A stretch of 35,334 bases of DNA from Clostridia bacterium (GTDB lineage Bacteria > Bacillota > Peptococcia > Peptococcales > BICA1-8): the NCBI GenBank assembly GCA_012800195.1, contig JAAZJU010000035.1:1-35334 (forward strand), read 5' to 3'. Below, piece by piece: positions 19,235 to 32,872 of the stretch. How positions within the stretch are numbered: the first letter of the stretch is position 1; the number at the start of each line of letters is the position of its first letter. The notes below the pieces were generated by a model. The model was not told the origin of the DNA. It saw only the letters and a list, made by a program, of their open reading frames with translations, and did no database searches. The translations under genes and the position numbers were made by a program.

Positions 19235-19322
19235 CTTAGATTCTTCACTGGCGTTCAGAATGACACTTGCAAAAATGACTTAGATTCTTCACTGACGTTC
19301 AGAATGACGCTTGCTAAAAGAG
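19235..19322. repeat. Two tandem ~44-bp units containing TTAGATTCTTCACTGrCGTTCAGAATGACrCTTGC
   Basis: Copies at 19235 and 19279 read directly. Confidence 0.85.
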
Positions 19323-19340
19323 TTATCTCTCCCACTTCCT

Positions 19341-19412
19341 CACTGTCATGCAGATTATCCTGTTAGCCATCACACTAACACACTATCATTCAGTTTAACC
19401 TATTAGCCATCT
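19341..19412. repeat. Two ~40-bp units CACTrTCATkCAG...AkCCATC related to the 31.1-kb array
   Basis: Copies at 19341 and 19381; core TGCAGATTATCCTGTTAGCCAT matches TGTAGATTATCCCGTGAGCCGT (reverse strand at about 31134-31155) at 18 of 22 positions. Confidence 0.75.
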
Positions 19413-29896: not shown

Positions 29897-30114
29897 TTAT
29901 AGTAGGCTATATTTTTGCTTTGATTGGTATAATTCTTTTTGAAATACCCACTTTAATTTTGAATAAATCTTGGTGGGAAATGGCTGTTTTCCTCGGTTTA
30001 ACGGGCTTTGCTTTCCTTCTGGGCTTATTAATGATTTTACAGGTTAATATCCCCAATCCCGTATATTTGATTAATAAAACTGTGGAATATTTTTTTGACC
30101 TGGTCCCTATTTAA
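29893..30114 (+). CDS. Small two-TM protein in the ger operon
   Basis: 73 aa, ATGA overlap with gerB, two hydrophobic segments. Confidence 0.7.
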   Translation: MIIVGYIFALIGIILFEIPTLILNKSWWEMAVFLGLTGFAFLLGLLMILQVNIPNPVYLINKTVEYFFDLVPI

Positions 30115-30508
30115 GAACCAGGTCAATAGCTTCCTTAGTTAATTCATTTAAAGGCTTATTAACTACCCCCACCAGCTCAACATGGGGTTGATTAATTGGT
30201 AATAAAATCTTCCTACACTTGGCTGAGGCAATTATTTCGGCAATTAAAGGGGTGATTTCTCCCATCATAGCATTGGGAACAATTATTCCCAAAGGCCCTA
30301 AAACTATATCAGCGTCATTGATACTAACTCTAATCACATTTTCTCCGCTAGCCCCCTTATGGGCTCCGGCCTTAACCATGGCTGCAGTGGCAATAGCATT
30401 AGTCCCCAAAGCCCAAATTTTATCCTCAGGAGCTAAATGGGGCAATAAGCTCTGAACAATATGAGCTCCTATCCCACCACCCATGCCATCTATTACTGCA
30501 ATTATCAT
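30107..30508 (-). CDS. DUF3842 family protein
   Basis: MIIAVIDGMGGGIGAHIVQSL...ALGTNAIATAAMVKAGA pattern. Confidence 0.85.
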   Translation of the reverse strand: MIIAVIDGMGGGIGAHIVQSLLPHLAPEDKIWALGTNAIATAAMVKAGAHKGASGENVIRVSINDADIVLGPLGIIVPNAMMGEITPLIAEIIASAKCRKILLPINQPHVELVGVVNKPLNELTKEAIDLVLK

Positions 30509-30526
30509 TAACCTACCTTCCTTCTA

Positions 30527-30991
30527 TTACTTATTTCTTGGTAAATATCTAAGGATAATTATAGCAATTAATCCGCCAGTTAAGGCAGTAACAAGCTGAG
30601 GAAAACTTAAGGCAGTAACTACTGGAGGTGGAGCATCAATAATAAATCTAACAGCTAAAGATAAAAGAATAAATTTTAAAATTGCACCAATCACAACCCC
30701 TACTAGAGGGTTAATTTTTTTACCCCAAGCGTAGCCAATGCATAGTAAAGCATTGCCAAGCATGATAAAAGGTATCGCTGGAGCAAAGCCCATTATACCC
30801 ATAATTAAAGCCAATAGTGGTGTGAAAATACCAATGATTATTCCGCTTAAAGCACCTATATAGCCAGTAGCTAAAATTAAAATTGCATTAACTCCAGGTC
30901 CAGTTAGCCATTGAATTTTAAATTGCTGAACAGCTAGAGCTAAAGCTAGTAACAAAGCAGTAGTAGTTAACATTCTAGTATTGAACTTCAT
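30527..30991 (-). CDS. ECF transporter S component
   Basis: Six-TM; LALALAVQQFKIQWLTGPGVNAILILATGYIGALSGIIIGIFTPLLALIMGIM. Confidence 0.85.
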   Translation of the reverse strand: MKFNTRMLTTTALLLALALAVQQFKIQWLTGPGVNAILILATGYIGALSGIIIGIFTPLLALIMGIMGFAPAIPFIMLGNALLCIGYAWGKKINPLVGVVIGAILKFILLSLAVRFIIDAPPPVVTALSFPQLVTALTGGLIAIIILRYLPRNK

Positions 30992-31123
30992 TTTGCTCCT
31001 CCTATGTTCGAACTATTCCCCTATTTTATTCTAACTATAACAAATATTCAATTACTTAGAAAGAAAACAATAAGTTATTGTAAAAAAGTGTGATGAACAT
31101 TATGACTTAAAGGCCTATCTAAT

Positions 31124-31347
31124 AAGTCGGCACTACGGCTCACGGGATAATCTACAGGTCAGCGTGACGGCTCATGGGATAGACTGGACGTCAGCATTAT
31201 AGCTAACAGGATAGTCTGCATGGCAGCATTTAAGCTTAATGTTGACCAGTGAGCTAGACATAAAAGCCGTAATGCTGTCCCCTATGCTAGACCCATAAGA
31301 CGTAATGCTGACCAATTTGCTATGCCCCTTGAGCCATAATGCCACAA
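31124..31347. repeat. Degenerate ~32-bp repeat array: four units one way, then about three inverted units
   Basis: Unit starts at 31124, 31156, 31188, 31220 (exact 32-bp spacing), then inverted units with cores at about 31265, 31298 and 31332. Confidence 0.8.
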
Positions 31348-31376
31348 CTATCACAACAAATAGCCCATGAGTTTTT

Positions 31377-31443
31377 AACGCGTTTACGCGCTCGCGAAGA
31401 ACGCAAATACGTTTAATGCGTGCCCGCGGAGTCGCGAAATAAC
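31377..31443. repeat. CpG-dense island with decayed direct duplication (CGTTTAyGCG...TCGCGAA)
   Basis: CGCGTTTACGCGCTCGCGAAG followed by CGTTTAATGCGTGCCCGCGGAGTCGCGAAAT. Confidence 0.6.
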
Positions 31444-31453
31444 GGAAAATATT

Positions 31454-32872
31454 TCACTCTTTTTCTTGACCCGCAAATTCCTCACTAGTCTTCTCCTCTT
31501 TCTGGCTGCCAGCAAATTCAGCTTTAATTATCTCTTCTTTATCCTTTAACTTTTTTAATTGGGCAGTTTTAGGCCTTAATACTAATCTACCTATGGTATT
31601 TTTCATGGTTAAGGTATCGAAAATCTTTTTACCCATGGTGTCCTGTTCTTGCTCCTTACTTGTAGATTGGTTTTGACTCTGGATAAATTTTTGTTTAACA
31701 AAAAGCATGCATCCAACCGAGGCTAAAAAAGCTAGGCCCGCCGGGGTTAAAAAGGTGGCTAAATTACTTATTTCCATCAAAATACCAAAAACCGGGGGGC
31801 CAATGGCTACCCCGAAAAATCTAACTGCTCCATAAAGGGAAGTAATCATTCCCCGTTCTTCCATAGAAACAGAACCAGTAATTATGGTGTTTAAGCAGGT
31901 CAAGACTAAACCACTTCCCACTCCACCTACTACTAACGCAGCAATAAAGATATAGATATTTTCTATAAAAAAAGGAATCACTGAATTGGCAATACCAATT
32001 AAGATAAGTCCACCTACAACAAAGAACTTATATTTATTTGACTTTTTTCCTGTAATCATACCAGTTATAAAACTGGTAGAAGAGCTGGCTAAAACAGGTA
32101 TGGCCAAGACTAGTCCTTTCCTAACTCCAAATAAGTTATATTTTTGTTCTAAATGATCCGAAAGGAAAAACAAGGTCCCAAATAAAACAAAAAGGGCTAT
32201 AGAACCACCAAAAAAAGCACTTGCTAAATGAACGCCCTTCCCTTGAAAGATCTTCTTTAAAGCAGATAAGTAGTTTTTTACTGACTTGGGTTTCTTATTG
32301 GTCATAGGATCTTGGACCAAAAACCAGACCGCTATAGCAGTTGGCACACAGAGTACGGGAAAAACAAAAAAAGTAGCATACCAAGCTAACATCCCTATAA
32401 GGGATCCAAAAATGGGACTAATTACTTTCCCTAAACCGTTAGAAGCCTCTAGAAGACCTAAGGATTTGCTCCGGTCACTAGAAGTAAAAATATCACTTGA
32501 TAAAGCCATAGCAATAGGTGCTGTTCCAGCTGCTCCTATTCCTTGCAGCACCCTGCCCGCCATAATAACATAGTAGGGTTTTTCCATTAACCATATTCCC
32601 AAAAGAGCCACTACTCCTCCCAAGCCATAAAGGATAAGAGCTGGTACTATAATTTTCTTTCTACTTATCCTATCAGATAAAAAACCTGCAAAAGGAATAG
32701 CTAATCCAGCAGGAACAGAGAATAAGGTTATAACTAAACTAACCTGAAACTGAGTAATATCTAGGGTAGATTTCATTTTAGGTAGTACAGGTATTAACAT
32801 GGAATTACCTAAAACCATTATTAAAGGTACTCCAGCTAAAGCAGCCAAAGTAAATTTTTTCTTCATATCCAA
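31454..32872 (-). CDS. MFS transporter (multidrug efflux type)
   Basis: GFLSDRISRKKIIVPALILYGLGG loop, GRVLQGIGAAG motif C region, 12-TM pattern, charged C-terminal tail. Confidence 0.93.
   Translation of the reverse strand: MDMKKKFTLAALAGVPLIMVLGNSMLIPVLPKMKSTLDITQFQVSLVITLFSVPAGLAIPFAGFLSDRISRKKIIVPALILYGLGGVVALLGIWLMEKPYYVIMAGRVLQGIGAAGTAPIAMALSSDIFTSSDRSKSLGLLEASNGLGKVISPIFGSLIGMLAWYATFFVFPVLCVPTAIAVWFLVQDPMTNKKPKSVKNYLSALKKIFQGKGVHLASAFFGGSIALFVLFGTLFFLSDHLEQKYNLFGVRKGLVLAIPVLASSSTSFITGMITGKKSNKYKFFVVGGLILIGIANSVIPFFIENIYIFIAALVVGGVGSGLVLTCLNTIITGSVSMEERGMITSLYGAVRFFGVAIGPPVFGILMEISNLATFLTPAGLAFLASVGCMLFVKQKFIQSQNQSTSKEQEQDTMGKKIFDTLTMKNTIGRLVLRPKTAQLKKLKDKEEIIKAEFAGSQKEEKTSEEFAGQEKE

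Follow-up and report, generated by a model that had tools for sequence, protein, structure and literature searches.

The window analyzed here is a stretch of 35,334 nucleotides from a Clostridia bacterium (contig JAAZJU010000035.1). Near its right end, the genes for an MFS transporter and for the substrate-specific component of an ECF transporter lie on the minus strand, and the spacer between them carries a degenerate repeat array that spans approximately positions 31093-31345. The array runs from three 32-bp A units through a palindromic center to three inverted 33-bp B units. It overlaps neither gene, and the non-coding character that had been assigned to it in an initial annotation is supported. 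The features discussed below are as follows.

19339-19412, minus strand: two degenerate A-type units (GTGTGATGGCTAACAGGATAATCTGCAT, GATGGCTAATAGGTTAAACTGAAT)
30527-30991, minus strand: downstream gene, ECF transporter substrate-specific component (PF12822), from ORF call and domain match
31093-31125, plus strand: outer left unit, 33 nt, ATGAACATTATGACTTAAAGGCCTATCTAATAA, like the terminal B unit yet inward-pointing
31126-31157, plus strand: A unit 3 (A3), 32 nt
31158-31189, plus strand: A unit 2 (A2), 32 nt
31190-31221, plus strand: A unit 1 (A1), 32 nt, with a linker ending in TCTGCAT
31222-31246, no strand assigned: palindromic center GGCAGCATTTAAGCTTAATGTTGAC (consensus GTCAGCATTTAAGCTTACATGCTGAC), where the orientation flips
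31247-31278, minus strand: B unit 1, with linker AGCTAGAC
31279-31311, minus strand: B unit 2, 33 nt
31312-31345, minus strand: terminal B unit
31454-32872, minus strand: upstream gene, MFS transporter (PF07690), from ORF call and domain match

The A and B units have the core GTCAGCATTACGGCT in common and differ in their linkers, which end in TCTGCAT in the A arm and carry GTCTAGCT in the B arm (read on the strand of the B core). The center of the window array can also be written GCAGCATTTAAGCTTAATG, and the outer left unit was compared with the terminal B consensus from other loci, GTAAGCATTATGACTCAAAGGTCTAGCTAATTG. TRF reported the array as a period of 32 (score 80) and a period of 33 (score 88), while a seed-based repeat finder did not detect it because the units are degenerate. 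The initial annotation had placed four direct units at exact 32-bp spacing and about three inverted units within 31124-31347. The three inverted units were recovered with a spacing of 32-34 bp, and A3, A2, and A1 held their 32-bp register, but the fourth direct unit (ATGGCAGCATTTAAGCTTAATG) turned out to be the palindromic center and the array begins one unit earlier, with the outer left unit. The relatives that had been noticed near 19.3 kb are real and correspond to the two A-type units listed above. A 44-bp tandem repeat, CTTAGATTCTTCACTGACGTTCAGAATGACACTTGCAAAAATGA (two copies, 92% match, window 19235-19319), adjoins these units, and a GC-rich repeat (AACGCGTTTACGCGCTCGCGAAGAACGC...CCCGCGGAGTCGCGAAATAACG; window 31374-31445) adjoins the array itself. 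CGCG-rich stretches similarly abut arrays at other loci, such as L003, L006, L007, L009, and L012, which suggests a second interspersed repeat family. An Rfam search of the window array returned no family at gathering score, no intrinsic terminator (a GC-rich hairpin followed by a T run) was found there, and a promoter search inside the array gave nothing beyond chance and nothing convincing.

The window array is real and not a chance pattern. Its sequence recurs in the same assembly (G000; 2.0 Mb in 256 contigs, 96% complete) with blastn E values down to 4e-28, far above what chance would give. A covariance model of the center recovered 13 full copies in G000 (E values of 2.5e-19 to 4.8e-12) besides fragments; because 11 copies had been used to train this model, we take the blastn result as the independent evidence. 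The 'C1-C45' sample of G000 excluded array-bearing contigs, and its zero arrays give no density estimate. Of the four other genera examined in the same taxonomic family, three had related arrays, and array-bearing genomes amounted to 4 of the 60 searched, all from one family, with none among other relatives. When 84,980 species were scanned for the pattern, 44 stretches matched, and repeated hits to the tandem unit came from just three MAGs, all belonging to this family (UBA3933, BRH_c20a, and AS01afH2WH_13); these were matched to the genomes G001, G004, and G003, respectively, by identical array layouts at the loci compared. The scattered matches outside these MAGs were isolated and were judged to look like chance. 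Searches of viral contigs, plasmids, and phages returned no match to the array. Neither the dispersal of the element nor its restriction to one family could have been shown by the initial annotation, which was made from the window alone.

We parsed 88 arrays from four genomes and found 44 arranged head to head, one tail to tail, and the remainder on one strand only; head-to-head layout therefore accounts for 44 of the 45 two-armed arrays. The number of modules varies widely between copies, and, as far as ends read by eye can tell, the right end is conserved and the left ends differ from locus to locus. A hairpin scan that used no unit sequence and strict gap costs likewise gave a period of 30-33 bp for most of the longest hairpins; lenient costs had flagged almost every stretch scanned. 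Many arrays of G004 use another core, GCGTCTGACA, with the period unchanged and the linkers likewise specific to each arm. This second core is confined to the taxonomic family: it matched 87 times in G004 and once each in G002 and G003, and 41 other genomes of the class gave no match. Unit spacing stays constant at 31-33 bp across both core families, and an in-register comparison of modules showed a slight excess only, at register 0. A bias in the A-to-B direction relative to the flanking genes was considered and rejected: it was not significant in G000 (10 of 13, p = 0.09) and also failed in G004, where the arrays were few and the direction was not the same.

The arrays occupy extragenic positions, almost exclusively between co-directional genes or at 3' ends. 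For 74 arrays outside ORFs both flanking genes could be called, giving 66 co-directional, 5 convergent, and 3 divergent contexts, and two of the three divergent calls are doubtful, as they rest on ORFs of 82-86 aa. Divergent spacers made up 72 of the 366 spacers with a length of 200 bp or more (Fisher p = 5e-4) and are therefore avoided by the arrays, with gene context taken from ORF calls and array sampling enriched for array-bearing loci. Three further arrays lie inside called ORFs; in one of them the array precedes the recognized LysM domains, and the other two ORFs are short and look spurious. In G004, an array of approximately 300 bp takes up all the space from a stop codon to the following Shine-Dalgarno sequence, and the same two genes in G001 are 31 bp apart with no array between them; arrays are thus present or absent at an orthologous spacer between genera. 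Because some arrays fill such stop-to-Shine-Dalgarno gaps inside operons, their placement indicates that they are probably transcribed along with the neighboring genes.

The MFS-ECF spacer of G004 also contains an array, of the same architecture as that in the window but with the other core, GCGTCTGACA. The gene order MFS transporter, ECF S component, and DUF3842 (window 30107-32872) is kept in G004 (L032, L097). When 79 orthologous co-directional gene pairs were compared between G000 and G004, arrays occurred in both genomes at two spacers, in G000 only at one, and in G004 only at one (Fisher p = 0.003, from small counts and with G000 loci enriched for arrays). The lengths of orthologous spacers correlate between the two genomes (Spearman 0.76), and this conservation of length may explain the co-occurrence. 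Spacers in these genomes are mosaics with several unrelated repeat families. A different palindrome-rich family (GATGCATC-type) occupies L113:19029-19458 and L177:545-818, in spacers that hold 32-bp arrays in sister genera, and word-like repeats (GTAGAACTGTAGAAC, GTGTAAGTGTGTAAG, and GTGCCACGATG) recur in G000 spacers (L016, L017, and L129).

The palindromic layout had been proposed to form a long hairpin, and the window copy can indeed fold, its energy being lower than that of shuffled sequences whichever strand is folded (z = -5.2 for one and -5.7 for the other). One explanation would accordingly be a structured non-coding RNA or mRNA hairpin in which base pairing itself is selected. Arrays of relatives at L024, L025, L026, and L063 fold well (z of -6 to -9), and two genera that use different cores both have complementary cores and unpaired linkers; these observations speak for this explanation. 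However, several copies fold like their shuffles (z near 0 for L003, L005, and L008, with 40 shuffles), and arm-swap tests did not single out the hairpin as the conserved feature. In G000, the arms of one locus paired no better than arms taken across loci, and in a cleaned G004 set native and swapped arms did not differ. A preliminary result in which native G004 arms were worse than swapped ones was dropped, as that set had included a double-axis array and poorly centered arrays. The expected hairpin pairs were formed in 73.8% of cells, as against 75.0% after the pairings had been shuffled, and RNAalifold returned a positive covariation term and did not choose the long hairpin. When the other genomes were pooled, the arm-swap test reached p ~0.04 at a single arm length out of three, which lends weak support to constraint at the level of the hairpin. 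We consider selection on base pairing quite unlikely as the explanation of the family. In the B arm, the linker GTCTAGCT is nearly invariant amid freely varying neighbors (chi-square 95.9, 14 df, p ~3e-14, a value that overstates independence because the units are related to one another), and this uneven conservation of columns could stem in part from the shared ancestry of the units. Given that swapped arms pair as well as native ones and that the most constrained linker is unpaired, the data favor dispersal and a putative sequence-specific recognition over a finely tuned hairpin.

Such recognition might operate on DNA alone, the array serving as a series of sites about three helical turns apart for a cooperative protein, for instance one of nucleoid organization, a gyrase-like enzyme, or a replication factor, with no role for RNA. 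The constant 31-33 bp spacing in two core families, the near-invariant unpaired linker motif, and the fixed polarity toward the center would all suit a binding array. Nevertheless, the avoidance of divergent spacers suggests that compatibility with transcription matters, the number of units is highly variable, and there is no candidate protein, so that we regard a purely DNA-level role as unlikely. We are similarly doubtful that the arrays are neutral debris, left by slippage and template switching wherever spacers are permissive, with neither a function nor a specific factor. The mosaic nature of the spacers speaks for neutral accumulation, as does the finding that orthologous spacers hold different families and yet keep their length; uneven column conservation and the 44:1 polarity would be unexpected under it, although common descent could contribute to both. 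Finally, the defined center, the conserved right end, and the inward-facing outer left unit of the window copy are reminiscent of a relic of a MITE or an insertion sequence. This origin appears very unlikely to us, as the internal unit number varies, the left ends are unlike between loci, a search of G000 for Y1 transposases gave no match, and neither did phages, plasmids, and viruses.

On balance, we hold it to be moderately probable that the window array is one copy of a lineage-restricted, non-autonomous repeat dispersed between co-directional genes, for which we propose spread, recognition, and the formation of hairpins in transcripts. The module is the 32/33-nt unit, composed of the core common to both arms and an arm-specific linker, with tandem modules always pointing toward the palindromic center. 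In the proposed mechanism, copies would spread as DNA, a mobility that we infer, and duplication of units or slippage would lengthen or shorten the arrays. A sequence-specific factor would read, or may once have read, the core together with the GTCTAGCT and TCTGCAT linkers. Arrays in operon-like spacers would be transcribed with their neighbors and form long imperfect hairpins, which, by analogy with REP elements, may alter mRNA processing or decay; the hairpin would be an incidental outcome of the inverted arrangement and not a structure tuned at each locus. More tentatively, a family-specific trans-acting factor might recognize the 32-nt module while the core is rewritten genome-wide in concert with that factor, by which genera would keep the head-to-head architecture, and partly the same gene spacers, with different cores; we think this extension improbable.

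The arrays can be compared with several known systems. In CRISPR arrays, near-identical repeats alternate with unique spacers; the present units are similar in length (~32 bp) and regular spacing, but they are degenerate, lack variable spacers, and change orientation in the middle of the array. Like MITEs, the arrays look non-autonomous and dispersed, with a defined center and one conserved end, but their module number varies. REP elements are short dispersed extragenic repeats that commonly form head-to-head pairs, lie near gene ends and operons, and have the potential to form RNA hairpins (PMC12306157), and GTAG- and CGTC-tagged types have been described (PMC3733652). Although the present family is likewise extragenic, dispersed, and multi-copy, its unit is not self-palindromic (best folds of -1.6 kcal/mol for A, -2.4 to -3.9 kcal/mol for B, and near 0 for the G004 core); weak folding of the unit is not uniform across genera, as the G003-type unit reaches -7.0 kcal/mol when one of its strands is folded. 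The A/B consensus of G000 has no terminal GTAG or CGTC tag, and the CGTC found in the G004 core GCGTCTGACA lies inside a non-palindromic unit. A search of G000 for the Y1 transposase/RAYT domain (PF01797) gave no match at 96% completeness. The same domain had 19 matches in G004 and a single match in each of G001, G002, and G003, so that G000 bears arrays although it alone among these genomes had no match. BIMEs are composite mosaics of regularly spaced intergenic units in alternating orientation (PMC2817692), and the arrays are also composite, with regularly spaced units in intergenic DNA; however, their tandem runs flip only once, at the center, and each arm has its own linker. In our reading, therefore, the placement resembles that of REP elements and BIMEs, but the family is not a member of either, as it fails the tests for a palindromic unit, an end tag, alternating orientation, and, in the window's assembly, a RAYT. 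The family thus represents a dispersed intercistronic repeat that is built differently from REP/BIME, in a lineage that has received little study and with no RAYT evident in the window's assembly. If the proposed factor and an effect on operon mRNA do not hold, the family still usefully illustrates how repeats turn over within operon spacers that stay fixed; if they do, the arrays would have arrived independently at what REP elements do.
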